Source: a virus
IMG/VR virus record: IMGVR_UViG_3300036857_000088
Location: 1-56,185 of that record
Length of the DNA: 56,185 bases
Strand: one strand, 5' to 3'
The notes beneath the pieces were generated by a model that saw only the letters and a list, made by a program, of their open reading frames with translations, ran no database searches and was not told the origin of the DNA. Position numbers and translations under genes: made by a program. Below, piece after piece: positions 5,191 through 49,940 of this stretch. Position 1 is the first letter of the stretch, and each line of letters starts with the position of its first letter.

Positions 5191-5805
5191 ATGACCGTTT
5201 CGAGCATTCCCTTTCGTTCGCCGCCCGTCACGTGGAACAATGGCCGGTACGACATCGCCATCGGCGTCGTCCCGGTCACGTGGCTTAAAGAGGCCGAGTA
5301 CAACCCGCGCACGATGTCGGACCAAGGCCGCGACGCACTCGAGCGAGGGCTCGACGCGTTCGGCATCGTCGACACGCTCATCGCCTGCGAGGACGGACAC
5401 CTCTTGGGCGGCCACCAGCGCCTCATCTCCGAGCGTCGCCGCGGCGCCATCGACGTGCCGGTGTTCGTCGTGTTCGGGCTCACGCTCGAGCAACGGCAGA
5501 CGGTCAACATCCTGCTGAACAACCCGAGCGCCCAAGGTCAGTGGGACTTGCCCAAGCTGACCGCGATCCTCTCCGAGCTGGACGCCAACGGGTTCGACGC
5601 GACGCTCACCGGGTTCACGCACGAGGAGCTGGCGAAGCTGTTGGGCCACGAAGGCCCGCAGATGGAGGAGCCGGGCGACGCCGACAGCGAAATCATCGAC
5701 GCGACCTTCGACGTGGTCGTGTCATGCGCGAGCGAGGCCGACCAGCGCGAGCTACTCGAGCGACTCACGGGGGAGGGGCTCAAATGCCGCGCGCTCACGT
5801 TGTAA
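5191..5805 (+). CDS. ParB-like nuclease-domain protein
   Basis: 204 aa. Residues 20-110 carry the ParB/Srx N-terminal fold: EYNPR (36-40), a helix with LERGLDAFGIVDTLI, then GHLLGGHQRL (69-78), and QRQTVNILLNNPSAQGQWDL. There is no HTH or dimerisation domain, so it is not a plasmid partition protein. Stand-alone ParB-fold proteins in phages often neighbour DNA-modifying genes. It overlaps the next gene by 22 nt and belongs to the A2 operon. Confidence 0.8.
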   Translation: MTVSSIPFRSPPVTWNNGRYDIAIGVVPVTWLKEAEYNPRTMSDQGRDALERGLDAFGIVDTLIACEDGHLLGGHQRLISERRRGAIDVPVFVVFGLTLEQRQTVNILLNNPSAQGQWDLPKLTAILSELDANGFDATLTGFTHEELAKLLGHEGPQMEEPGDADSEIIDATFDVVVSCASEADQRELLERLTGEGLKCRALTL

Positions 5806-6917
5806 GAACGTCGCCCGTCGTTCGGACGGGCCGCGTGCAGCAAGTCGAGGGCATGTTCGACGTGCCGCCGTCCGAGAAGTCGACCGTCGAGTGGGACGTG
5901 AACCTGCCGCTCGACGAGCAGCCGTGGCACGTGGGGCTCATCGTCGGGCCGTCCGGCTCGGGCAAGTCGACCGTCGCGCGCGAGCTGTTCGGCGGCGACA
6001 TGGTGGGCGCGCTCGAATGGCCGAGCGACCGCGCCATCATCGACGCGTTCCCGAGCGACATGGGGACGCGCGAGGTCGTGGCTGCGCTCAACTCGGTGGG
6101 CTTGGGCTCACCGCCGGCGTGGCTCCGCCCGTTTCACGTTCTCTCAAATGGCGAGCAGTTTCGGGCGACCGTCGCGCGAGCACTCGCCGAGCGCCGCGAC
6201 CGCATGACGGTCATCGACGAGTTCACGTCGGTCGTCGATCGCCGCGTGGCGCAGATCGGAAGCGCCGCCGTCGCCAAGGCGGTGCGTCGCGCCAACCAAC
6301 GGTTCGTCGCCGTCACGTGCCACTACGACGTGCTCGATTGGCTCCAGCCGGATTGGGTGTTCGAGCCCCACGCCAACAGCTTCGCTTGGAGGTCGGTTCA
6401 ACCCCGCCCCAAGCTCAGTCTCGAGGTCCGTCGGGTCGATCGCGCCGCATGGCGCGTGTTTAAGCACCATCACTATCTGAGCGGCGAGTTGCTCGCGAGC
6501 GCGAAGTGCTACGGCGGGTTCATCGACGACCAGTGCGTCGCGTTCGCCGCCGTGCGCGTGTTCCCGCACGCGCATCGCACCAACATCATCATGGGCCACC
6601 GGCTCGTCGTCCAGCCCGATTGGCAGGGGTTAGGGATCGGTGGCCGCATCGACGACGCGCTCGGCGCGTTCCTGTATCAACGCGGGTGGGCGTACCACAA
6701 CGTCGTCGCGCACCCCGCGATGAAAGCCTACTACTCGCGGTCGCCGCGGTGGAAGCTCCACTCCGCGTCGGTCAAGCCGTCGACGGGCCGACGCTCGACG
6801 ATTTCGCTCGGCAAGTCGAACAACGACCCGCGCAAGCTCTCCACGTCCACGTTCGTGTATGTGCCGCCTGCTGGCACGCCGCGCCCGACCGAGCGCGTGC
6901 CGTATGCGACGCTCTAA
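5784..6917 (+). CDS. ABC-ATPase fused to GNAT acyltransferase domain (Mom-like candidate)
   Basis: 377 aa. The N-terminal ABC-type ATPase has Walker A GPSGSGKST (55-63), signature-like LSNGE (120-124), Walker B MTVIDE (141-146) and an H-loop His180. The C-terminal GNAT domain (about 213-330) begins FKHHHYLSG (227-234), has the acyl-CoA pyrophosphate loop QGLGIGGR (281-288), then HPAM and SRSPRWK (318-324). The HHYLxG start recalls phage Mu Mom, a GNAT-fold DNA adenine modifier; this similarity is from memory. ATPase-GNAT fusions next to ParB genes recur in phages. No membrane segment, so it is not a transporter. Confidence 0.75.
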   Translation: MPRAHVVRTSPVVRTGRVQQVEGMFDVPPSEKSTVEWDVNLPLDEQPWHVGLIVGPSGSGKSTVARELFGGDMVGALEWPSDRAIIDAFPSDMGTREVVAALNSVGLGSPPAWLRPFHVLSNGEQFRATVARALAERRDRMTVIDEFTSVVDRRVAQIGSAAVAKAVRRANQRFVAVTCHYDVLDWLQPDWVFEPHANSFAWRSVQPRPKLSLEVRRVDRAAWRVFKHHHYLSGELLASAKCYGGFIDDQCVAFAAVRVFPHAHRTNIIMGHRLVVQPDWQGLGIGGRIDDALGAFLYQRGWAYHNVVAHPAMKAYYSRSPRWKLHSASVKPSTGRRSTISLGKSNNDPRKLSTSTFVYVPPAGTPRPTERVPYATL

Positions 6918-6928
6918 CCCATAGGCCG

Positions 6929-7303
6929 ATGAAAACCTTTGTCAGCTCGAAAATCCACGGCATCCGCGTCACGGACAAAGCGGTCCGCTATCACGGCTCG
7001 GTGTCGATCTGCCCGCACCTCATGCGGCGCGCCAACATTCAGGAATACGAACAGGTCCACCTCGTGAACCTGACGAACGGCGAGCGTTGGATCACGTACG
7101 CGATCCCGGCCGAAAGCGTCGGCGCGTTCACGCTGAACGGCGGCGGTGCTCGGCGCGGTGAAATCGGCGACGAGTTCGTCATCATGGCCTACGAGACGAC
7201 CGAGCACTACGTGCCGGCGCGCGTCGTTCACACCGACGACCAGAACAACATCCGCCGCGAGTTCGACTACATCGCCGGCGAGTCGGGACCGCGCGAGGGC
7301 TAG
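6929..7303 (+). CDS. panD: Aspartate 1-decarboxylase (PanD)
   Basis: 124 aa, the normal length of PanD. Every hallmark is present: K8 in SSKIH, Y21-H-G-S24 at the self-cleavage site (Gly23-Ser24 gives the pyruvoyl group), NGERWITYAI with R53 and Y57, NGGGA at 70-74, and GDEFVIMAY. PanD turns L-aspartate into beta-alanine, a CoA precursor. Start ATG at 6929, 11 nt after the GNAT stop. A phage copy beside a CoA-transferase and a CoA-dependent acyltransferase suggests beta-alanine is made for that cassette; boosting host CoA is the alternative. Maturation in some bacteria needs a GNAT protein (PanZ), so help from the adjacent GNAT domain is possible. Confidence 0.9.
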   Translation: MKTFVSSKIHGIRVTDKAVRYHGSVSICPHLMRRANIQEYEQVHLVNLTNGERWITYAIPAESVGAFTLNGGGARRGEIGDEFVIMAYETTEHYVPARVVHTDDQNNIRREFDYIAGESGPREG

Positions 7304-7304
7304 C

Positions 7305-8024
7305 GTGAGTCTCCGCGTTCTCGAGCTGGGCAACTACGTCGCGCCCGCGTATGCGGGCATGATCCTCGCCGAGCAGGGCGCCGAGGTGGTGAAGTGGACG
7401 GCTACGGGCCGCGATCCCATCCTCACGCTCAAGAAGGGCCGCGAGCTGTGGGCGTGGATCAACCACAAGAAGCGCCTGTTCGACGTTCACCCGCGCACGC
7501 TCGTCGAGCGCCCGTGGGGGCCGATGTCGCCCGACATCATCATCGACAACTTCCGCCCGTCGACGCTCGCCAAATGGGGCATCGACCCGGCCGCGCTCGC
7601 GAAGCAGCACGGTGTCGTGTGGGTGTCACTCCGATCGGAAGTCGGCGAGGTGTCGTTCGACATCCTCGCGCAGCATCGGGCGTGGCGTCACATCGCGCCG
7701 TGGATGCCGTTCTATATCGGTGACACTGCCGCGGGCCTCTGGCTCGCCTTCAAGGCGCTCGCGATGCTCGACCGAGGCCGATACGGGCATTACCCGATCG
7801 GTCACGCCACGTCGCTCGCCAAGCTCGTCGAGGGAGAGCTGGTCGTCGATCGGCCGACGCCAAGCTCCCCCGATCAAGTCGCGTGGGATTGCGACCGCTA
7901 CGGCGTTTCTGGCGACGAGGCGATCGTCGAGTACGGCGACGAGTGGTTCGTCGAACCAGCGCGACATGCTGCGTGGCAGCGCACGCACCTGTGGCACGAC
8001 GGCACCGGGCGCATGACGATCTAG
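7305..8024 (+). CDS. Short class III (CaiB/BaiF-type) CoA-transferase
   Basis: 239 aa, GTG start. The N-terminus VLELGNYVAPAYAGMILAEQGAEVVKW is typical of the family. IIIDNFRP (78-84) follows, then a strand and FDILAQ (118-123), where D119 sits at the usual catalytic Asp position, and FYIGDTAAGLWLA (137-148). Full family members have about 400 residues; this one lacks much of the small domain, yet keeps the active-site region and ends in a neat stop next to the convergent ASCH gene. It would move CoA between carboxylic acids. Acceptor unknown; beta-alanine from PanD is a natural guess. Confidence 0.75.
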   Translation: MSLRVLELGNYVAPAYAGMILAEQGAEVVKWTATGRDPILTLKKGRELWAWINHKKRLFDVHPRTLVERPWGPMSPDIIIDNFRPSTLAKWGIDPAALAKQHGVVWVSLRSEVGEVSFDILAQHRAWRHIAPWMPFYIGDTAAGLWLAFKALAMLDRGRYGHYPIGHATSLAKLVEGELVVDRPTPSSPDQVAWDCDRYGVSGDEAIVEYGDEWFVEPARHAAWQRTHLWHDGTGRMTI

Positions 8025-18101: not shown

Positions 18102-18273
18102 ACTCGGTGGGGACGCTCGTCGGGAGGGGCTTGCCCGCACCGAGGTGCGGGTGCTTCTGGCACGGGTTCGGGCCACGGGCGGTCACGACACGCCAGAGGC
18201 ATCGGGGGTCCGCGCAGTAGCACTCGGGGTGCTCCTCTTTGTGGGCGCGAACCTTGGCGGCGACGTTTGACAT
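18100..18273 (-). CDS. Small Cys-containing protein
   Basis: 57 aa, read on the minus strand: starts MSNVAAKVRA, has CYC at 18-20 and Cys at 25 and 38 with nearby His residues, so a zinc site is likely. Ends PTSVPTE. Its family B promoter (-10 at 18280-18285) places the transcript start near the ATG, so the mRNA would be leaderless. Unknown function; moron-like. Confidence 0.6.
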   Translation of the reverse strand: MSNVAAKVRAHKEEHPECYCADPRCLWRVVTARGPNPCQKHPHLGAGKPLPTSVPTE

Positions 18274-18392: not shown

Positions 18393-18407
18393 GATACACA
18401 CGTGATA

Positions 18408-18423
18408 TGTGCCACGTGGCACA
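18408..18423 (+). promoter_or_regulatory. 16-bp perfect palindrome next to leader hairpin
   Basis: TGTGCCACGTGGCACA. An identical copy lies at 41889, in both cases preceded by GATA and directly abutting a CCGAGAA hairpin. It could be a DNA operator or an RNA stem-loop. Confidence 0.65.
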
Positions 18424-18440
18424 ATGGGCCGAGAACCCAT
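18424..18440 (+). promoter_or_regulatory. CCGAGAA-loop RNA hairpin H1
   Basis: Stem ATGGG/CCCAT around the loop CCGAGAA; ends 23 nt before the TTG start at 18464. One of eight copies with invariant loop and changed stem. Confidence 0.75.
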
Positions 18441-18463
18441 CTTCACCCGCACCAAGACACCAC

Positions 18464-19114
18464 TTGCTCAAGAATGGACCCAACCCCGGCCAGCGCCGCG
18501 ACACGCAGCGTTCCAAAGTGTACGCCGCCGGCCGCGCGATCGAGCTGCCGTACAAGCACGGCGTCTGCCCCGATCCGAAGCTCCGCGACATCGAGCAGTG
18601 CCAAGCGTTCGTCACGAAGCTCCAGCAGTCGGCGTGGTATCGCCGCACGTTCCCGCAGCACCGTCGCCCCGTCACCGTCAAGCACGGCGGCGGTTGTTCG
18701 TCCGCTCGTGCGTGCGGCTCTGGCATGATCGAGTTGCCCGCGTGGTCCCGCCAGAAGGCGGTGATCCTCCACGAGCTGGCGCACTGCATCCTCACGGCGA
18801 AGCACGACCGACGCGCCGCCGACCACGGCTGGGAGTTCTGCGCGATCCACCTCCAGCTCGTCCAGCACGTCATGGGGCTCGAGGCGGCCGCGAAGCTCAA
18901 GGCCGCGTTCAAGTCGCACGGCGTGCGCTTCCGCCCGAAGCGGGTCGTGATCCTCACGCCCGAGCAACGCGCCGCCGCTGCCGAACGGTTCGCCGCATAC
19001 CGCGCCGCGAAAGCCGCGGCGATCAACCCACCCGCGCCGATGCCGGCGCCGGTGGGCACCGCCACCCCCGACCGGAGATTCGACATCGCGCTCGCCCGCG
19101 CCGATTCGTGCTAG
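18464..19114 (+). CDS. Zinc metalloprotease-like protein
   Basis: 216 aa from TTG. HELAH (103-107) followed by H121 in ADHGWEFC is a zincin metal site; CPDP, GGGC and ARAC lie upstream. An in-frame ATG at 18407 exists but would translate through the palindrome and the leader hairpin. The TTG lies after AGACACCAC, the same context as the ATG at 19197, with the standard spacing from the hairpin, so I choose TTG. Ala/Pro-rich C-terminus. Family B control suggests expression from the prophage or early; substrate unknown. Confidence 0.7.
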   Translation: MLKNGPNPGQRRDTQRSKVYAAGRAIELPYKHGVCPDPKLRDIEQCQAFVTKLQQSAWYRRTFPQHRRPVTVKHGGGCSSARACGSGMIELPAWSRQKAVILHELAHCILTAKHDRRAADHGWEFCAIHLQLVQHVMGLEAAAKLKAAFKSHGVRFRPKRVVILTPEQRAAAAERFAAYRAAKAAAINPPAPMPAPVGTATPDRRFDIALARADSC

Positions 19115-23772: not shown

Positions 23773-23815
23773 TAGTAGGAGTTGTTGTAATGGTGACGGT
23801 GACGGTGAAGGGCAT

Positions 23816-23881
23816 AGCGTCCGCATTGCGACCGCTATGCGATGGCAGTGCCGACGCAATGCGACCGCATACCGATCGCAT
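23816..23881 (+). repeat. Tandem array of six 11-bp units (array I)
   Basis: Units from 23816: AGCGTCCGCAT, TGCGACCGCTA, TGCGATGGCAG, TGCCGACGCAA, TGCGACCGCAT, ACCGATCGCAT. The consensus is a 10-bp palindrome-like TGCGRYCGCA plus one base. A TAGTAGTAG and three GGTGAC-like triplets lie just upstream, as in array II. It ends 15 bp before promoter A7. An ORF of 37 codons (ATG 23790) crosses it but looks like a by-product. This, the A7 promoter and its leader fill the 331-bp gap before 24104. Confidence 0.75.
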
Positions 23882-41715: not shown

Positions 41716-41762
41716 TAGTAGTCGTGTAGTTAAGTGAAGGTGACGATGACGATGAATAGCAT

Positions 41763-41839
41763 AGCGGTCGCATTGCCATCGCAGTGCGGCCGCTTTGCGT
41801 TCGCAGTGCGGTCGTAATGCGGTCGCATTCCGGTCGCAC
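41763..41839 (+). repeat. Tandem array of seven 11-bp units (array II)
   Basis: Units from 41763: AGCGGTCGCAT, TGCCATCGCAG, TGCGGCCGCTT, TGCGTTCGCAG, TGCGGTCGTAA, TGCGGTCGCAT, TCCGGTCGCAC. Same period, palindromic core and upstream context (TAGTAGTAG, then GGTGACGATGACGATGAA) as array I. It ends 5 bp before the -35 of the next family B promoter. Confidence 0.8.
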
Positions 41840-41844
41840 CATAG

Positions 41845-41873
41845 TTGCGCCGTTCCGTCTTACGCAATAGATT
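41845..41873 (+). promoter_or_regulatory. Family B promoter with operator dyad
   Basis: TTGCGC (41845-41850), TTCCGTCTTACGCAA (41853-41867), TAGATT (41868-41873). Confidence 0.75.
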
Positions 41874-41888
41874 GATCCTCGTTCGATA

Positions 41889-41904
41889 TGTGCCACGTGG
41901 CACA
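41889..41904 (+). promoter_or_regulatory. 16-bp perfect palindrome next to leader hairpin
   Basis: TGTGCCACGTGGCACA, identical to 18408-18423 and in the same position. Confidence 0.65.
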
Positions 41905-43462: not shown

Positions 43463-43490
43463 TTGTGCTTTCCGCCGAATGCAATAGATT
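43463..43490 (+). promoter_or_regulatory. Family B promoter with operator dyad
   Basis: TTGTGC (43463-43468), TTCCGCCGAATGCAA (43470-43484), TAGATT (43485-43490). A weak terminator-like ATGCCG/CGGCAT stem with TTTTC precedes it. Confidence 0.7.
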
Positions 43491-43505
43491 GATTGTCACG
43501 CAGCA

Positions 43506-43524
43506 CGGCCGCCGAGAACGGCCG
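43506..43524 (+). promoter_or_regulatory. CCGAGAA-loop RNA hairpin H4
   Basis: Stem CGGCCG/CGGCCG around CCGAGAA; ends 26 nt before the ATG at 43551. Confidence 0.8.
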
Positions 43525-43550: not shown

Positions 43551-44156
43551 ATGGCCCAATACGCCATCGACACACCCGACGGCCGCGTCGCGGCCTGTGG
43601 CCGCTGTAAGACCAAGGCGGCAACGCGCTACCTGCCCAGCAAGAAGGCCCGCACCTATTGCGACACGTGCTGGCCGAAAGACTCGAGCCTCTGGAACCGA
43701 CTCGTTCGCATCACCCAGCCGATCAAGCTCCGCGCCGACGCCGTGGTGCTCGCGCCGAGCAAGCCCCAGCCGAAACCCAAGCCCCAGCCGACCAAGGTCG
43801 AGCCGTTCGACGCGTCGCCGATCGGCAAGATGCTCGACGAGACGCTGGCGCGGCAGGCCGAGGAGGTCCGCGAGCTGTTCCGTGGGTACGACGACGGAAT
43901 GCTCATGGCAGCGAGCAAGACCCGCGAGCTGCTCACCGCGCTCGGCGCCAAGACGATCGAGGACGCCACGACCACCGCGACCACGCAGGCCGAACTCATC
44001 GTCGAGCAAAAGACGCACATCCGCTCGCTCGAGTCGCGCATCGCGCAGCTCCGCGCCGACCTCGAATACGCGAAGGGCATGGAACGCGAGGCGATCGAGG
44101 AAAACGCCCGCCTGTCCGCACGACTCAAGGGCGCTCCCGCCTACGCGTCGCACTAA
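43551..44156 (+). CDS. Zinc-ribbon plus coiled-coil protein
   Basis: 201 aa. CGRC...CDTC (residues 16-40) forms a zinc ribbon. A basic Pro/Lys linker (KPQPKPKPQP) and a long coiled coil (RSLESRIAQLRADLEYAKGMEREAIEENARLSARL) follow. Monocistronic with its own promoter, hairpin and terminator. Unknown; it may be part of the MoxR-VWA group downstream. Confidence 0.6.
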   Translation: MAQYAIDTPDGRVAACGRCKTKAATRYLPSKKARTYCDTCWPKDSSLWNRLVRITQPIKLRADAVVLAPSKPQPKPKPQPTKVEPFDASPIGKMLDETLARQAEEVRELFRGYDDGMLMAASKTRELLTALGAKTIEDATTTATTQAELIVEQKTHIRSLESRIAQLRADLEYAKGMEREAIEENARLSARLKGAPAYASH

Positions 44157-44176
44157 CCTCGTTCTGGAACACTCAG

Positions 44177-44208
44177 CGCCGACCTCACCCGTCGGCGTTC
44201 GAGTTTTC
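44177..44208 (+). terminator. Intrinsic terminator
   Basis: CGCCGAC (44177-44183) pairs with GTCGGCG (44191-44197), then TTCGAGTTTTC. It abuts the next promoter. Confidence 0.7.
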
Positions 44209-44211
44209 TAG

Positions 44212-44239
44212 TTGCGCTTTCCGTCAGACGCAATAGATT
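44212..44239 (+). promoter_or_regulatory. Family B promoter with operator dyad
   Basis: TTGCGC (44212-44217), TTCCGTCAGACGCAA (44219-44233), TAGATT (44234-44239). Confidence 0.75.
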
Positions 44240-44271
44240 GATTGTCACGCAGGACGCAGGACGGCGACCGA

Positions 44272-44290
44272 GAATCGCCGAACCCATAAC
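44272..44290 (+). promoter_or_regulatory. CCGAGAA-loop RNA hairpin H5
   Basis: Stem CGGCGA/TCGCCG around CCGAGAA; ends 25 nt before the ATG at 44316. Confidence 0.8.
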
Positions 44291-44315
44291 CCTTTCCCCG
44301 AGACACGCACCCTCT

Positions 44316-45434
44316 ATGTCATCCGCTCCGACCCCCATGTCCACCCTTCGCGACGGCGTCGCCGCGTCGCTCATCGGCCGCGAGAAGGAAGCGTCGATTC
44401 TGACGCTCGCCTTGATCGCCCGCGAGCACGCGCTCCTCGTCGGCCCGCCGGGCACGGGCAAGTCCAACCTCTGCCGCAACGCGGCGAGCATGATCGACGG
44501 CGCCCGCTACTGCGAGCGTCTCCTCTCCCCGACCACCGCGCCCGAAATGATTTGGGGGCCGGTGTCCATCTCCGCGCTTCGCGAAGATCGGTACGAGCAC
44601 GTCACCGCCGGCTACGCCGCCGACGCCCACATCCTCTATCTCGACGAGGTGGGTCGTGCGTCGCCCGCGATCCTCGACACGCTGCTGCACCTCCTTGGCC
44701 CCGAGCGTCAGGCGCTCGTCGGCACCAAGCAAGTCAAGGCGCCGCTCGTCGCGGCGATCGGTTCGGCGAACACGTGGCCCGAGGACGCGGCCATGCTCGA
44801 CCGTTGGACGCTCCGCGCCAACGTCCAGTACCTCAGCGCCGGCAACCGCCGCTCGCTGCTCACCTTCGCCCCGCCGGTGCTCAAGACGGTGGCGACGCTC
44901 GCTGACCTCGACGCCGCGCACGACATGGCGAAGTCGATCAAGTGGGCGCCCGGCACGCTCGACGTGCTCGAGATGATCCTCGCCGACTTGGACGAGGCGG
45001 GCATCACCGTGTCCGACCGCCGTCTCCGCTCCGCCGACAAGATCGCCCGCGCCGCCGCCGTGCTCCGTGGCTCGAGCGAGGTCGAGACGATGGACCTCGA
45101 GACGCTCCAGTGGGTGCTGTGGTCAGTGCCGGACCAAGCGCCGATCGCCGGCCAGAAGGTCGTCGCTCGCGCGAACCCCGTGGGTGCTCGGCTCGACTCG
45201 ATGCTCGCCGAGGTCGACGAGGTCAAGCGTGCTGCCGTTGACGCGCCGACGCGCATCGACGCCGCCACGAAGATCGGCGCCATTCTCGCCGAAGCACAGA
45301 AGCTCGCCGCGAAGCCCGGCCAGAACGGGCGCGCCGCGAAGGTCGTGAAGTACGTCCAGAACGAGCACATTCGGATTCAGGGCGCGATCTTGGGGCTCCC
45401 CGCCGACAAGATCGAAGCCATGCTCGCCGCGTAA
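44316..45434 (+). CDS. MoxR/RavA-type AAA+ ATPase
   Basis: 372 aa. Walker A GPPGTGKS (43-50), Walker B ILYLDE (106-111), sensor-1 GSAN (149-152) and R163 in MLDRW; the LLSPTTAPEMIWGP insert before Walker B is typical of MoxR/RavA proteins. These work with VWA-domain partners as remodelling chaperones; a VWA gene follows at once, as in ravA-viaA. ATG 44316 is chosen by hairpin spacing and CCCGAGACAC context. Target unknown. Confidence 0.85.
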   Translation: MSSAPTPMSTLRDGVAASLIGREKEASILTLALIAREHALLVGPPGTGKSNLCRNAASMIDGARYCERLLSPTTAPEMIWGPVSISALREDRYEHVTAGYAADAHILYLDEVGRASPAILDTLLHLLGPERQALVGTKQVKAPLVAAIGSANTWPEDAAMLDRWTLRANVQYLSAGNRRSLLTFAPPVLKTVATLADLDAAHDMAKSIKWAPGTLDVLEMILADLDEAGITVSDRRLRSADKIARAAAVLRGSSEVETMDLETLQWVLWSVPDQAPIAGQKVVARANPVGARLDSMLAEVDEVKRAAVDAPTRIDAATKIGAILAEAQKLAAKPGQNGRAAKVVKYVQNEHIRIQGAILGLPADKIEAMLAA

Positions 45435-45447
45435 CCCGCCCACGAGG

Positions 45448-45479
45448 CGCCCGCCGCAAACCACCGCGACGGGCGTCTT
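45448..45479 (+). terminator. Probable terminator between MoxR and VWA genes
   Basis: CGCCCG (45448-45453) pairs with CGGGCG (45470-45475), then TCTTG. The T-tract runs into the next -35. Confidence 0.5.
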
Positions 45480-45505
45480 GTGCTTTCCGTCACACGCAAT
45501 AAATT
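45478..45505 (+). promoter_or_regulatory. Family B promoter with operator dyad
   Basis: TTGTGC (45478-45483), TTCCGTCACACGCAA (45485-45499), TAAATT (45500-45505). The expected start of transcription is at or near the ATG at 45513, so no leader hairpin is present. Confidence 0.7.
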
Positions 45506-45506
45506 G

Positions 45507-46916
45507 ATGTCTATGCACAACGCCGAACTTTCCCAACTCCTGAACGACGGCGCGACCGCGGCAGAATCGGTCGCCATCGTCGACGTGTCACCCCTCGCGA
45601 CGACCCCCGAGGAATCCAAGACGGTGCTCAAGTGCGACCGCTGGACGCGGCGCACGGGTGACCGGCTCGCGGCCGAGTGGACCGAGCTGGGTGCTGTGGG
45701 CACCAACGAGCACGACGGCAACATCGCCGCCGACGCGATCGAGACGCTCCTGTCGTCGTCGCCGAAGGCGGCTGACCGACCGGCCGATCCCGCCCGCGCG
45801 AAGTGGTGGAATCAGCTCATGCAGTCCCCCGAGTGCGCCGGGCTCCGCGCGCGCACCGTGTCGTCGCCGGCCATCGCCGAAATCGCCGCCGCGGAACTCG
45901 TGAAGCAATGGCTCCAGTACGAGGCCGCGACGCCCGAGAAGTCCGAAGGCGAAGGCGACGGTGACGGTGATGGCGAGGAATCGCCCGAGGAGACGGTGCG
46001 TCGGATTCGCTCGACGCGTTCCGCGGTCGGTGAGGCGACCGCCGCGGCGGAAGATGCCGAGAATTGCGGCGCCGGGCTCGGGTTGGACACCAGCTCCACC
46101 GTCGACAGTGGCAAGCTCGCGAGCGCCACGCGACGGATGCGGAAATCGACCAACCTCGCGCGCATCATGCGAATGGCGGGGCGCTTCGCGCAGAAGGCCG
46201 CCGCGCTCCAGAAGCAACGGACCGACCTCCCCGGCATGGAAGTGACGGGCGTCGAGCTGTCGGGCGACCTCTCGCGCACGCTCCCGCTCGAGTCGGCGCT
46301 CGTCGCCGGCGCGGTGCCGGAACTCGAGCTGCTCGCCATGATGCGCCTCGCGCAGCGACGCTCGCTGTCGTACAAGCGCGTGGCGCGGACGCCCGTGGCA
46401 ATGGGGCCAATCGTCGTCAGCGTCGACGAATCCGGCTCGATGTACGGCGCCAAGGTCGAGGCGGCGAAGGGACTCGCGCTCGCTATGGCGTCGATCGCCC
46501 GCGCGCAGAAGCGCCCGTTCTTGCTCGCCGGGTACACGAACCACCAGCGCATCCGCGTTGCCGATCCGACCACCGACGGCATCGTCGCGTGGTGCGAGGC
46601 GTTCCTCTCGGGTGGCTCCGACCTCGACATGCCGCTCGAGTCGATCCGGCCGCACTGGCCGAAGGGCAAGATTGGCGCGCGCGCCGACCACATCATCATC
46701 GGCGACGCCGAAATCGACGCGGCGACGCCTCAGTTCCTCGACGACTACCGCGCGTGGGCGAAGCAGATGAACGTCCGCACGTTCTCGATCATCGTGGGTG
46801 GCGCTCGCCCGGGCGCACTCGGTGCCGTCTCCGACGGTGGCGTGTGGTGCCTGCCCCAGCTCGACCTCGATAACCCCGCCGTCGACGCCCTTCTGTCCTT
46901 GGGGCCGACGGCGTGA
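45507..46916 (+). CDS. VWA-domain protein (ViaA/CoxE-like)
   Basis: 469 aa from ATG 45507, or 467 from ATG 45513 if leaderless. The N-terminal half is helical with an acidic low-complexity run (EGEGDGDGDGEES, about 147-159). The C-terminal VWA domain has the MIDAS DESGS (307-311) and FLSGGSDLD later. It is the expected metal-binding partner of the MoxR ATPase just upstream, yet it has a separate promoter. Confidence 0.8.
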   Translation: MSMHNAELSQLLNDGATAAESVAIVDVSPLATTPEESKTVLKCDRWTRRTGDRLAAEWTELGAVGTNEHDGNIAADAIETLLSSSPKAADRPADPARAKWWNQLMQSPECAGLRARTVSSPAIAEIAAAELVKQWLQYEAATPEKSEGEGDGDGDGEESPEETVRRIRSTRSAVGEATAAAEDAENCGAGLGLDTSSTVDSGKLASATRRMRKSTNLARIMRMAGRFAQKAAALQKQRTDLPGMEVTGVELSGDLSRTLPLESALVAGAVPELELLAMMRLAQRRSLSYKRVARTPVAMGPIVVSVDESGSMYGAKVEAAKGLALAMASIARAQKRPFLLAGYTNHQRIRVADPTTDGIVAWCEAFLSGGSDLDMPLESIRPHWPKGKIGARADHIIIGDAEIDAATPQFLDDYRAWAKQMNVRTFSIIVGGARPGALGAVSDGGVWCLPQLDLDNPAVDALLSLGPTA

Positions 46917-46925
46917 GCACGACCC

Positions 46926-46990
46926 GCGTACCGTGTGGGGCGATCACCGGGCACTTCCGCACCGGGCGCCACTGAGGCCACACGGTACGC
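46926..46990 (+). terminator. Long inverted repeat, probable terminator
   Basis: GCGTACCGTGTGG (46926-46938) pairs perfectly with CCACACGGTACGC (46978-46990) over a 39-nt loop; TTTTGTC follows within 20 nt. Confidence 0.55.
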
Positions 46991-47014
46991 GCTCGCACTC
47001 GCCCAACTTTTGTC

Positions 47015-47042
47015 TTGTGCTTTCCGTGGGACGCAATAAATT
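47015..47042 (+). promoter_or_regulatory. Family B promoter with operator dyad
   Basis: TTGTGC (47015-47020), TTCCGTGGGACGCAA (47022-47036), TAAATT (47037-47042). Confidence 0.75.
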
Positions 47043-47063
47043 GATCGTCACGCAGTAATCACC

Positions 47064-47080
47064 GCGCGCCGAGAACGCGC
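47064..47080 (+). promoter_or_regulatory. CCGAGAA-loop RNA hairpin H7
   Basis: Stem GCGCG/CGCGC around CCGAGAA; ends 24 nt before the ATG at 47105. The flanks GTCACGCAG and AAACCCTT are shared with H4 and H5. Confidence 0.75.
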
Positions 47081-47104
47081 TCACTCAAACCCTTGACACC
47101 ACTT

Positions 47105-48001
47105 ATGACCAACTCACCCGCAGGTTTCATCGTTTCGTGGAAAGTCCCGGCGTCCGTCTCGCTCGACGGCCTCCGGTCCGGCATCACCTCCGCCGGGTTC
47201 GACGCGTACGACATGGCGCCGGACCTCCCGCACGTCTCGCTCGTCTCGCGCGCCGCGGCGTACATCGCCAAGGTCACGAGCGACCCGAACACCCGGAAGC
47301 TCGCGCGCAAGGTGTCCCACATGACGCGCCAGATCACGCGCGAGACGGCAGATCACGCCGACGGCCTCGCGTACACCAAGGAAGCGGCGATCCGCTTCGA
47401 CGACGTGACCGGCACGCTCGTGTCCGACGAGCCGTCCATCGCTGCCATGCTGCCCGAGACGGCGGCGCACGTGTTCAACACCCGGACGGCGAACGACATC
47501 ACCCGGATCGTTCAGCGGATCGTGAACGAGGCGGGGTCCGACCTCATCCCGGTGCGCGAGCAGGGCGGCGCGTACTTCATCCCGCTCGGCCACAACGTCA
47601 TCTCGAAGATTGCCACGATGCTGTCCGCGATCGGTGGCGAGATGTCGACCTTCGCCTGCACCATCGGCCACGGTCACGAGGCGTCGAAGGCCGCCGAGCA
47701 GTCCGTGGCGAACGTCATCACCGACTACCTCCTCAAGCAGATCGGCGACCTCAGAAAGTCCGTCGACGAGCTGAATGAGACGGGCATCCGGTCCGACGTG
47801 AAATCCCGCCGCTTGACCCGCGTCGCCGAGCTGCGCGAGCGAATCGGCGCGTACGCGTCGCTCATCTCGGCGCAGTCCGGCAAGCTGAACGACGCGCTGG
47901 CATCGGCCGAGGTGGCGCTTCTCGCGAAGCTCACCGCCCCGACGCACGAGCCCGAGGCGACGCCCGAGCCGACCCCCGAGCCCGTCCCGCAAGCCGCGTA
48001 A
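47105..48001 (+). CDS. Hypothetical protein next to MoxR-VWA pair
   Basis: 298 aa. Alpha/beta N-terminus (FIVSWKVPASVSLDGLRSGI), a helical middle and long C-terminal helices, ending in Pro-Glu-Thr repeats. It may match a phage family (DUF6744-like) that I recall beside AAA genes. Probably a third component or substrate adaptor of the MoxR-VWA system. Confidence 0.55.
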   Translation: MTNSPAGFIVSWKVPASVSLDGLRSGITSAGFDAYDMAPDLPHVSLVSRAAAYIAKVTSDPNTRKLARKVSHMTRQITRETADHADGLAYTKEAAIRFDDVTGTLVSDEPSIAAMLPETAAHVFNTRTANDITRIVQRIVNEAGSDLIPVREQGGAYFIPLGHNVISKIATMLSAIGGEMSTFACTIGHGHEASKAAEQSVANVITDYLLKQIGDLRKSVDELNETGIRSDVKSRRLTRVAELRERIGAYASLISAQSGKLNDALASAEVALLAKLTAPTHEPEATPEPTPEPVPQAA

Positions 48002-48020
48002 GCTGTGATCCCGATTACCA

Positions 48021-48048
48021 TGTGGCGCTAAGATTCCTTAGCGCCACA
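48021..48048 (+). terminator. Perfect 12-bp-stem hairpin
   Basis: TGTGGCGCTAAG (48021-48032), ATTC, CTTAGCGCCACA (48037-48048). No T-run, so it is a terminator needing help, or a protein-binding dyad. Confidence 0.65.
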
Positions 48049-48089
48049 CTGGCATCTAGATTCTTTAGCGGATTTTTAGTACAGTGCGT

Positions 48090-48124
48090 GGGCGCCCTTA
48101 ATGACTGGAGGGCGCCCATTTTTT
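48090..48124 (+). terminator. Strong intrinsic terminator
   Basis: GGGCGCCC (48090-48097), 12-nt loop, GGGCGCCC (48110-48117), then ATTTTTT. Closes the accessory block before the repressor region. Confidence 0.85.
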
Positions 48125-48190: not shown

Positions 48191-48652
48191 GTGACCGCCC
48201 CAACCCGCGACGCACACGCCGGCCCCGCCGAGTGGTACGTCGTTGCCGAAGGTGTCCATGTCCTCCGACTTGCCACCCGCCACGGCAACCGGATCGACAT
48301 ATGTGCTCGATGTTCATGCGGCGCCCTCGTGCTGCCGAGCTTCACCGTTGACTCGCCCGAGGCTGTCGACATCGCCGTCCGTGCGGCGAACACGCTCACG
48401 AGCATCGCAAAGCGCGATTGCGAAGCCGGTGTGCCGAGCGCGCCCGGGTGCCGCCGGGCGAAGGCCGCACGCGAGCGCGACGACGCGGACCCGAGGGCGA
48501 GGCGCGAGAGTGCTCGCGAAATGCTCGAGGTGATTCAGACGCGCATCGCGATCGCCGAGCAGCTCCGCGACCACTACGCCCGACAGGCGACCGGCACTAA
48601 CGGGGCTTCCGACGCCCGCCGGCGCGTGCTGCCATTATATCCGTCAGGGTAA
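48191..48652 (+). CDS. Hypothetical protein with Cys site and helical tail
   Basis: 153 aa from GTG 48191; a start at 48101 would lie within the terminator loop and is rejected. CARCSCG near residue 39 suggests a metal site. The C-terminal half is helical (REMLEVIQTRIAIAEQLRDHYARQ). Its 3' end overlaps the repressor gene tail-to-tail by 56 nt. No clear promoter upstream; less certain than its neighbours. Confidence 0.45.
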   Translation: MTAPTRDAHAGPAEWYVVAEGVHVLRLATRHGNRIDICARCSCGALVLPSFTVDSPEAVDIAVRAANTLTSIAKRDCEAGVPSAPGCRRAKAARERDDADPRARRESAREMLEVIQTRIAIAEQLRDHYARQATGTNGASDARRRVLPLYPSG

Positions 48653-48965
48653 AGTTGCGCGTCGACAGCCCGGGCGCCTTGCTCGCGTCACCGTACGAGA
48701 GCCAGCCCGGGTCGACCTTTCCCTTCACGAGCGAGCAAATCGCGAGAATCGTCGCGGGCTCGCTCGGGTGCGTGCCCGACTCCCATCGGCTCACGGTCGA
48801 CGCCGAGTAGGGCGTGTCCTTCCCTTCCGCCTCCGCGAGCAGCTCACCCAGCTCGGCGTGCGTGACGTGGCGATCCATGATCTGGCTCAAGAGCATGTGA
48901 ACCAGCGTCATCCGCTCGCCGAACGCCGCGCCCATCACGCGGCTCGCATCGAATTGCTTGGGCAT
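48597..48965 (-). CDS. XRE-type HTH regulator, immunity repressor candidate
   Basis: 122 aa from ATG 48965. HTH_3 pattern: MLLSQIMDRHVTHAELGELL, then TPYSASTVSRWESGTHPSEPATILAIC with WESG, the usual XRE turn. Only XRE gene and the only minus-strand gene in the right half; transcribed away from the early operon across a region with two dyads (49010 and 49055). With an integrase present it is the best candidate for the lysogeny repressor that binds the dispersed TTCCGTC-N-GACGCAA sites (inference). Confidence 0.75.
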   Translation of the reverse strand: MPKQFDASRVMGAAFGERMTLVHMLLSQIMDRHVTHAELGELLAEAEGKDTPYSASTVSRWESGTHPSEPATILAICSLVKGKVDPGWLSYGDASKAPGLSTRNFTLTDIMAARAGGRRKPR

Positions 48966-49002: not shown

Positions 49003-49030
49003 TTGCGCGTTCCGTGCCACGGAATAAATT
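49003..49030 (+). promoter_or_regulatory. Family B promoter with perfect-palindrome operator
   Basis: TTGCGC (49003-49008), TTCCGTGCCACGGAA (49010-49024, a perfect 7-1-7 palindrome), TAAATT (49025-49030). Lies between the repressor gene and the rightward operon, about 45 bp upstream of the repressor start, suited to autoregulation. Confidence 0.75.
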
Positions 49031-49054
49031 GATTCTCACGGGCGCGATGACGCG

Positions 49055-49069
49055 TTCCGTCGTACCCAA
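49055..49069 (+). promoter_or_regulatory. Second operator dyad without promoter
   Basis: TTCCGTCGTACCCAA, followed by CAAGTT instead of a -10. Located 31 bp beyond the first operator. Confidence 0.6.
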
Positions 49070-49109
49070 CAAGTTGCACCGAAACCCCAACCCCCGCAAC
49101 TCCCCCTTA

Positions 49110-49367: not shown

Positions 49368-49940
49368 ATGACACAACCCGCGTACGAACCTGCCGCCCGA
49401 CACGAGGCCGGCAATCTCAAACTGTACGAGGCGACCGACGCGCTCGACATCGTCGCCGAGATGCTCGCCGAAACCGAGGGCGAGCTGACACCCGAAATCG
49501 AGGAGTTGCTCGCTCGCGCCGGCGCCGACTTCAACGCCAAGGCCGAACGCGTCGCGCTCAAGGTGCGCGAGCTGGTGCTCGAGGCGGACGCTGTGAAGGC
49601 GGAAGCCGACCGACTCGCCGCGCGCGCTCGCGCTCGCAAAAATGCTGCCGAGTCACTCCGCGCCTATCTCTGCCGCGAGATGCAACGCGCCGATCGCCCG
49701 AAGATCAAGGGCGAGCTGGTGAGCCTCAGCGTGCAACGCAACCAACCGAAGCTCGTCGGCGCCGACACGCTCGACGACACCTATCTCGCGGGGCTCGGCG
49801 ACGCGTTCGTCACCGTCACGCGAAAGCTCAACGCGCGCGCCGTGCTCGAGCTTTGGAAGCGCGAAGGCGGCACCGCACTCGCCACCCTGCCGACGACGTG
49901 TTACGTCGACGACTCGGGCGCCCACGTGGTGATCCGCTAA
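49368..49940 (+). CDS. Gp157-family protein
   Basis: 190 aa. NLKLYEATDALDIVAEMLAETEGELTPEIEELL, then helices with E/K/R heptads (KVRELVLEADAVKAEADRLAARARARKNAAESLRAYL) and the C-terminal VSLSVQRNQPKL strand: the siphovirus Gp157 pattern. The family commonly precedes recombination ATPases and SSB, as here. Its biochemical role is unclear. Confidence 0.8.
   Translation: MTQPAYEPAARHEAGNLKLYEATDALDIVAEMLAETEGELTPEIEELLARAGADFNAKAERVALKVRELVLEADAVKAEADRLAARARARKNAAESLRAYLCREMQRADRPKIKGELVSLSVQRNQPKLVGADTLDDTYLAGLGDAFVTVTRKLNARAVLELWKREGGTALATLPTTCYVDDSGAHVVIR

Follow-up and report, generated by a model that had tools for sequence, protein, structure and literature searches.

The virus record IMGVR_UViG_3300036857_000088 carries, as neighbouring genes, a MoxR-family AAA+ ATPase, a protein with a VWA domain and a divergent member of the orphan family DUF6744, and sequence comparison identifies DUF6744 as the third member of a conserved MoxR–VWA set. 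The set appears to be conserved as a unit, because MoxR and VWA accompany DUF6744 in viruses unrelated to one another as well as in some bacteria. The three proteins probably form an ATP-driven machine. The window, that is, the whole stretch of 56,185 bases analysed here (G0 in the gene trees), encodes integrase, portal, capsid, terminase and tape-measure genes, a combination that marks its owner as a predicted temperate tailed phage. Megablast of the whole region against phages returned no matches. A preliminary description of this DNA had grouped four genes into a MoxR–VWA accessory system of individually controlled units, possibly expressed in the lysogen for defence or host takeover. All four open reading frames (ORFs) were confirmed in the order described, i.e. 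zinc/coiled-coil protein, MoxR, VWA and DUF6744 (43551–48001).

The MoxR, VWA and DUF6744 proteins

The best Pfam match of the MoxR protein is PF20030 (bpMoxR, E value 1.5e-35), which bears out its preliminary identification. Its alignment shows a conserved Walker A motif (GPPGTGKS) and conserved LDE, sensor and arginine-finger regions. The VWA protein matched no Pfam family, and as a single-sequence query in viral_contigs it gave no confirmed match. Its assignment as the VWA partner is nevertheless upheld by the ViaA NCBIfam model (E value 1.6e-12) and by its predicted structure (mean predicted local distance difference test score, pLDDT, 78.9), which contains a VWA domain with a best structural Z score of 16.4 over 169 residues (root-mean-square deviation, rmsd, 2.8) and ends with that domain, with no C-terminal propeller. 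The D-x-S-x-S motif of the metal ion-dependent adhesion site (MIDAS), consisting of Asp305, Ser307 and Ser309, is invariant in all ten alignment rows.

Intact ATPase motifs and an adjoining VWA gene with a MIDAS, the two features looked for in a RavA–ViaA pair, are thus both present, and tblastn matches of the pair include proteins annotated as ViaA. As in Escherichia coli RavA–ViaA, the AAA+ MoxR and VWA genes are adjacent, and the model matches cover the ATPase core on one side and the VWA domain plus the residues immediately preceding it on the other. These matches support the proposed resemblance to RavA/ViaA, a chaperone-type pair, as the preliminary description had suggested. However, the scores lie far below the equivalog cut-offs (103.2 bits against 681 for RavA, 47.4 against 500 for ViaA), and the phage MoxR stops at 372 residues, its match spanning positions 12–320 of 498, so that the C-terminal part of RavA, with its LARA domain, is not seen. 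DUF6744 is a further partner that RavA–ViaA does not share.

The 298-residue protein scored 22.6 bits against PF20529 (DUF6744) and 21.5 bits in a second run, below the gathering cut-off of 27. It aligns end to end with the DUF6744 protein of Moorella phage MTATph1, which itself scores 206.6 bits, and over its full length with genome loci of which 10 out of 11 exceed the cut-off. It also shares the VRxxGGxYFxP motif with members of the family. The alignments identify it as a divergent DUF6744; the ORF previously listed as an unknown is therefore real, but it is not an isolated unknown. Its predicted structure (pLDDT 86.7) has four matches in BFVD at an E value of at most 0.001, one of them from halovirus HVTV-1. 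A second structural comparison gave a best Z score of 10.2 (3nwi, 92 residues, rmsd 2.7), mainly at the helical end, and no function is read from this likeness since the score lies within the range that unrelated helical bundles can reach. DUF6744 was absent from the literature searched.

Distribution of the set in viruses and bacteria

Two viral contigs carry all three genes: G1 (49,395 bases; end repeat of 127 bases) and G2. A third contig, G3, is a shorter version of G2 and is identical to it throughout the matched regions. The three proteins share 71/59/59% identity with those of G1 and 70/55/53–55% with those of G2. G1 and G2 are mutually syntenic, and tblastx matches to the present phage fall inside the trio in 27 of 28 cases for G1 and in all 22 for G2. 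These counts come from a run that excluded the short, GC-rich matches, numbering in the hundreds, which sum statistics produce outside the trio. Such a pattern suggests a set that travels between otherwise almost unrelated phages. In G1, the MoxR and VWA genes overlap and DUF6744 follows closely, forming a compact run, and in G2/G3 about 150–180 bases separate MoxR from VWA while VWA and DUF6744 are tight. In the present phage, the intergenic gaps of 78 and 188 bases are filled with separate control elements. In all three gene trees, which bear long-branch warnings, {G0,G1,G3} forms a group with 100% bootstrap support, and the two Planctomycetota rows stay together.

Beyond these relatives, MTATph1 encodes DUF6744, then bpMoxR, then VWA, as adjacent genes. 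Gene 25 of HVTV-1 is a DUF6744 (69.5 bits; profile E value 7.9e-18; also a structural match), and this virus further encodes AAA_5 and VWA genes, with DUF6744 about 15 kb off; its AAA protein was not detected by the MoxR profile built here. Scanning genome_contigs with a four-row DUF6744 alignment yielded 13 loci in bacterial genomes, seven of which include both MoxR and VWA (L021, L024, L026, L028, L029, L030, L031), whereas at four further loci the contig ends within the VWA gene (L022, L023, L025, L027). Locus L019 begins inside DUF6744. Among the sampled genomes, DUF6744 was matched in 6 of 294 Planctomycetota and 2 of 298 Gemmatimonadota. The planctomycete matches correspond to ten places (11 rows, one overlapping another), five of which have a VWA gene in the short flank. 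The Gemmataceae genome G006 has four separate DUF6744 places (L021/L036, L042, L044, L045) with VWA beside each, one of them near a protein kinase.

Several observations weigh against strict conservation of the set. At one DUF6744 locus (L020), neither MoxR nor VWA occurs within 16.8 kb, and the other five planctomycete places have no VWA within the short flank. In addition, CL131 holds a MoxR–VWA pair with LPD29 as the other neighbour instead of DUF6744. Within {G0,G1,G3}, the MoxR tree pairs G0 with G3, while the other two trees pair G1 with G3.

The zinc/coiled-coil protein has two CxxC pairs and the same type of control as its neighbours. However, tblastn found no homologue in G1, G2 or G3, so that its previously proposed membership of the system was not sustained and it is best placed outside the conserved set.

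Phage G001 has two arrays built from a 12-bp unit of the GTCCACCGGAC type, at L012 16805–16875 and L013 7768–7853. One is within the replication initiator ORF and the other immediately precedes the MoxR gene; none occurs in G2. A link between the trio and replication control in that phage is possible.

Control elements in the phage genome

The preliminary description had assigned each of the four genes its own promoter and operator. A matrix iterated from four starting sites and scanned across the window detected 15 sites scoring at least 25.2 bits, with the next best at 12.3 and reversed-sequence controls at 5.3 or less. A copy precedes each of the four genes, far above chance (Table 1). The motif core, TTCCGTNNNACGCAA, is near-palindromic, and the copy at 49010 has perfect arms. 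The core is flanked by TTGYGC and TARATT, the putative −35 and −10 elements. Since a sigma-70 scan called no promoters here, the word promoter is used on the strength of the motif's repetition and spacing. When a stricter pattern was allowed three mismatches at most, it matched 12 times in this phage and not at all in G1, G2 or G3; the motif was likewise absent from viral_contigs and, with up to two mismatches, from all 298 Gemmatimonadota genomes.

Separate control of each trio gene is thus real yet not special, because the motif is used genome-wide, and the earlier idea of individually tuned expression loses its footing. A repressor bound at the palindrome should silence the genes in the lysogen, as the palindrome falls between the putative −35 and −10. 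A helix-turn-helix (HTH) protein is the natural candidate for this repressor, with two motif copies beside its divergent gene. With the palindrome in this position and these two copies beside the HTH gene, the previously suggested expression in the lysogen is not supported. Cluster A mycobacteriophages similarly have many repressor-type sites over one temperate phage genome (PMC9283540). Those sites are asymmetric 13-mers in promoters and intergenic spaces, whereas the sites here are near-palindromic within promoter-like motifs.

Table 1. Genes and candidate control elements in and around the trio (window coordinates)
Feature	Position	Strand	Evidence or detail
Promoter/operator motif, zinc/coiled-coil gene	43463–43498	+	48.1 bits
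Leader hairpin, loop CCGAGAA, zinc/coiled-coil gene	43506–43524	+	6-bp stem
Two-CxxC/coiled-coil protein, 201 residues	43551–44156	+	Two CxxC pairs in sequence
Terminator-like hairpin after zinc/coiled-coil gene	44175–44199	+	Terminator scan
Promoter/operator motif, MoxR gene	44212–44247	+	53.9 bits
Leader hairpin, loop CCGAGAA, MoxR gene	44262–44280	+	6-bp stem
MoxR AAA+ ATPase, RavA-like, 372 residues	44316–45434	+	PF20030, RavA model, Walker A
Promoter/operator motif, VWA gene	45478–45513	+	47.7 bits
VWA protein, ViaA-like, 467 residues, apparently leaderless	45513–46916	+	ViaA model, MIDAS, fold; alternative ATG 45507
Promoter/operator motif, DUF6744 gene	47015–47050	+	51.8 bits
Leader hairpin, loop CCGAGAA, DUF6744 gene	47064–47080	+	5-bp stem
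DUF6744 protein, 298 residues	47105–48001	+	PF20529 (weak score), full-length alignment, model
Terminator-like hairpin after DUF6744 gene	48088–48119	+	Terminator scan
HTH protein, candidate repressor	48597–48965	−	PF13560 E value 1.4e-4 (below cut-off); phrog_4 repressor E value 4e-4
Two motif copies beside HTH gene, one of them perfectly palindromic (TTCCGTGCCACGGAA)	49003–49083	+	47.9 and 31.3 bits

Three of the four genes, all except VWA, also have the leader hairpin ascribed to most of them earlier. The loop sequence CCGAGAA occurs 21 times on the plus strand, eight times within a stem of at least five pairs (background 1,222 per 112,310 positions), and twice on the minus strand, in neither case within such a stem. 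The left arms of the eight hairpins all differ, yet 44 of 48 possible pairs are formed, a value equalled in 6 of 100,000 trials when stem partners were shuffled. Seven of the eight lie closely downstream of a motif copy. Eight different stems around one loop are strong evidence that something reads this RNA element. No gathering-score match to Rfam 15 was obtained in the window. A search for loop plus start box elsewhere matched 64 viral loci; these look like chance, because none has the operator core and only one has a CCGAGAA hairpin of at least five pairs.

Two boxes recur near start codons, GACACCAC (11 on the plus strand, one on the minus strand) and CCGAGA[GC]AC (six on the plus strand, none on the minus strand). 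No Shine-Dalgarno-like word was found in the stretch checked for the four genes of interest, the genes at 49368 and 55754 and many other genes of the phage. In the VWA gene (45513) and a minus-strand ORF starting at 18273, the ATG lies 27–28 bases from the core start, and both appear leaderless, the ATG at 45513 sitting at the expected transcription start. The closest published parallel considered is the start-associated sequences (SAS) of Cluster K mycobacteriophages (PMC3203893), where a short motif likewise recurs ahead of many start codons and about half of its copies have an inverted repeat upstream. The authors of that paper saw little to support pairing at the RNA level, whereas the inverted repeats here covary as RNA stems around a fixed loop. 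Furthermore, the Shine-Dalgarno core of the Cluster K elements is not present here, and the boxes differ from the SAS and extended SAS type GGGATAGGAGCCC with its 16S pairing.

A terminator for every gene had also been described. Two classical ones were found, after the zinc/coiled-coil and DUF6744 genes, while the stable hairpins before the zinc/coiled-coil gene, after MoxR and after VWA have no T-run that passes the scan; its total of six is no more than expected by chance (4.9, standard deviation 2.5). The DUF6744 gene is followed by a strong inverted repeat (48008–48072; GTGGCGCTAAG / CTTAGCGCCAC), accompanied by TTAGCG in a third, partial copy; the repeat may be an attachment or regulatory site.

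Elsewhere in the window, an identical palindrome, TGTGCCACGTGGCACA, lies immediately 5' of the CCGAGAA hairpin in two leaders (18408–18423 and 41889–41904). Upstream of an SprT-like gene (18407–19114), or at its start, lie a copy of the motif and a CCGAGAA hairpin; this is the only other gene with a clear G1 homologue (38.7% over 173 residues in a gapped protein search). Against PF10263 (SprT-like), this phage falls below the cut-off, HVTV-1 exceeds it and MTATph1 matches weakly, with no match in G1, G2 or CL131; the gene is a possible fourth member of the set. Two iteron-like arrays of 11-bp units were found, one of GCATTGCGACC (6.4 copies, 23812–23881) and one of GCATTGCGGTC (7.3 copies, 41759–41838) that stops just short of the promoter motif at 41846. 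Two ORFs are odd cargo for a phage: one resembles CoA-transferase family III (7146–8024), and the other matches an ATPase plus GNAT acetyltransferase (5541–6917). A tRNA scan found none.

Candidate function and alternative explanations

The identity of the parts is far more certain than their client. The reading we tentatively prefer, at somewhat less than an even chance for the whole chain, is a RavA–ViaA-type AAA+ remodelling machine with DUF6744 as a dedicated third subunit, acting on phage replication or recombination complexes in the lytic phase. MoxR, VWA and DUF6744 would act as one complex, in which the MoxR ring would be driven by ATP, the VWA protein would serve as the MIDAS adaptor and DUF6744 would either bring the substrate or be the substrate. 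The HTH protein would bind the palindrome and hold the genes off in the lysogen, and the machine would act early in lytic growth.

This reading is favoured over virion assembly or conflict because of the DNA-gene neighbourhoods and the chaperone role known for RavA–ViaA and related pairs. DNA-metabolism genes lie near the set in six of nine sampled neighbourhoods. In the present phage these are Gp157, Sak4-like, single-stranded DNA-binding protein and integrase genes. G1 has exonucleases, including a RecE-like one, a replication initiator and a polymerase exonuclease subunit, and MTATph1 has ribonucleotide reductase just upstream, uracil-DNA glycosylase and a Holliday resolvase. DnaN occurs in CL131, beside the pair that lacks DUF6744, and with HNH and methylase genes in Robertmurraya, while Kroppenstedtia has RecT, primase, exonuclease and integrase. 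Other points count against the proposal. The neighbourhoods were tested by chosen ORFs rather than all, and DNA-metabolism genes are common in phages. No DNA-metabolism match was seen among the six ORFs tried at the Paenibacillus and Peptococcaceae loci (L026, L029), and the Gemmataceae locus L021 adjoins a protein kinase. The repressor matches of the HTH protein are weak, and the DUF6744 model has no PDB match at an E value of at most 0.001, i.e. no solved structure is clearly alike.

A chaperone for virion assembly, as the MoxR–vWA pair of Acidianus two-tailed virus (ATV) is reported to be and as has been proposed for group 2.2 jumbo phages, is improbable, although it has published precedent (PMC7824862, PMC7911831) and the phage MoxR matches include ATV proteins annotated as structural. 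Those matches are weak (24% identity), and the trio lies beside recombination genes, away from the head and tail block (terminase, portal, capsid and tape measure) at 16.8–32.2 kb. G1 and G2 possess the trio, yet none of their head or tail genes resembles those of this phage, so that an assembly client would have to differ between phages. ATV p618/p892 and the haloviral AAA–vWA pairs are like the present pair in combining a viral MoxR/AAA protein with vWA, and HVTV-1 has DUF6744 as well. They differ in the distant DUF6744 gene and the unmatched AAA protein of HVTV-1, and the available text of the two papers mentions no third component.

A conflict system directed at host defences or superinfecting phages, related to the MoxR–vWA ternary systems (Kaur et al. 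2020, PMC7159879), likewise seems unlikely. Those systems also combine MoxR, VWA and a conserved third protein, and theirs is the bpMoxR model that best matches the phage MoxR; the presence of the trio in otherwise unrelated phages and the four VWA-associated DUF6744 places in one Gemmataceae genome fit as well. However, the third proteins of the four systems, as far as the available text of that paper describes them, are VMAP, iSTAND, FtsH or beta-propeller proteins and not DUF6744. Neither an effector domain nor a hypervariable region was seen here, DUF6744 aligning end to end, the P-loop is GPPGTGKS and not GXXXTAKS, and the VWA protein lacks the C-terminal propeller. The operator position moreover predicts silence in the lysogen. 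PADLOC returned at best a P-loop match for MoxR (E value 0.001 over 26 residues) and none for VWA or DUF6744 of this phage, so that the earlier suggestion of defence is not supported.

Maturation of a single phage enzyme (ribonucleotide reductase, for instance, or else a metal-dependent nuclease), much as RavA–ViaA or CoxD–CoxE serve one complex, would suit the RavA–ViaA similarity and the ribonucleotide reductase gene of MTATph1 but is distinctly improbable, as none of the neighbourhoods sampled points to one enzyme that keeps company with the trio, DnaN being found only twice.

In the literature searched, no combination of MoxR and von Willebrand proteins in a bacteriophage genome was found; a cyanophage paper (PMC9964418) reports a MoxR gene and, in its available text, does not mention VWA. 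The remodelling proposal can be extended, in a form that we consider rather unlikely as a whole, to a further, undescribed MoxR–vWA ternary machine, with DUF6744, of bacterial and archaeal viruses that would rebuild replication or recombination complexes. In this phage its genes, compact elsewhere, would have become single-gene units under two common layers, namely a repressor palindrome within every promoter and, in trans, a factor that recognises the CCGAGAA loop, invariant among the eight leader RNAs, and aids translation start without a Shine-Dalgarno sequence. For DUF6744, an orphan family until now, the comparison provides a setting as the recurrent partner of a viral MoxR–VWA pair, from a halovirus to Planctomycetota, and thereby a function that can be tested.

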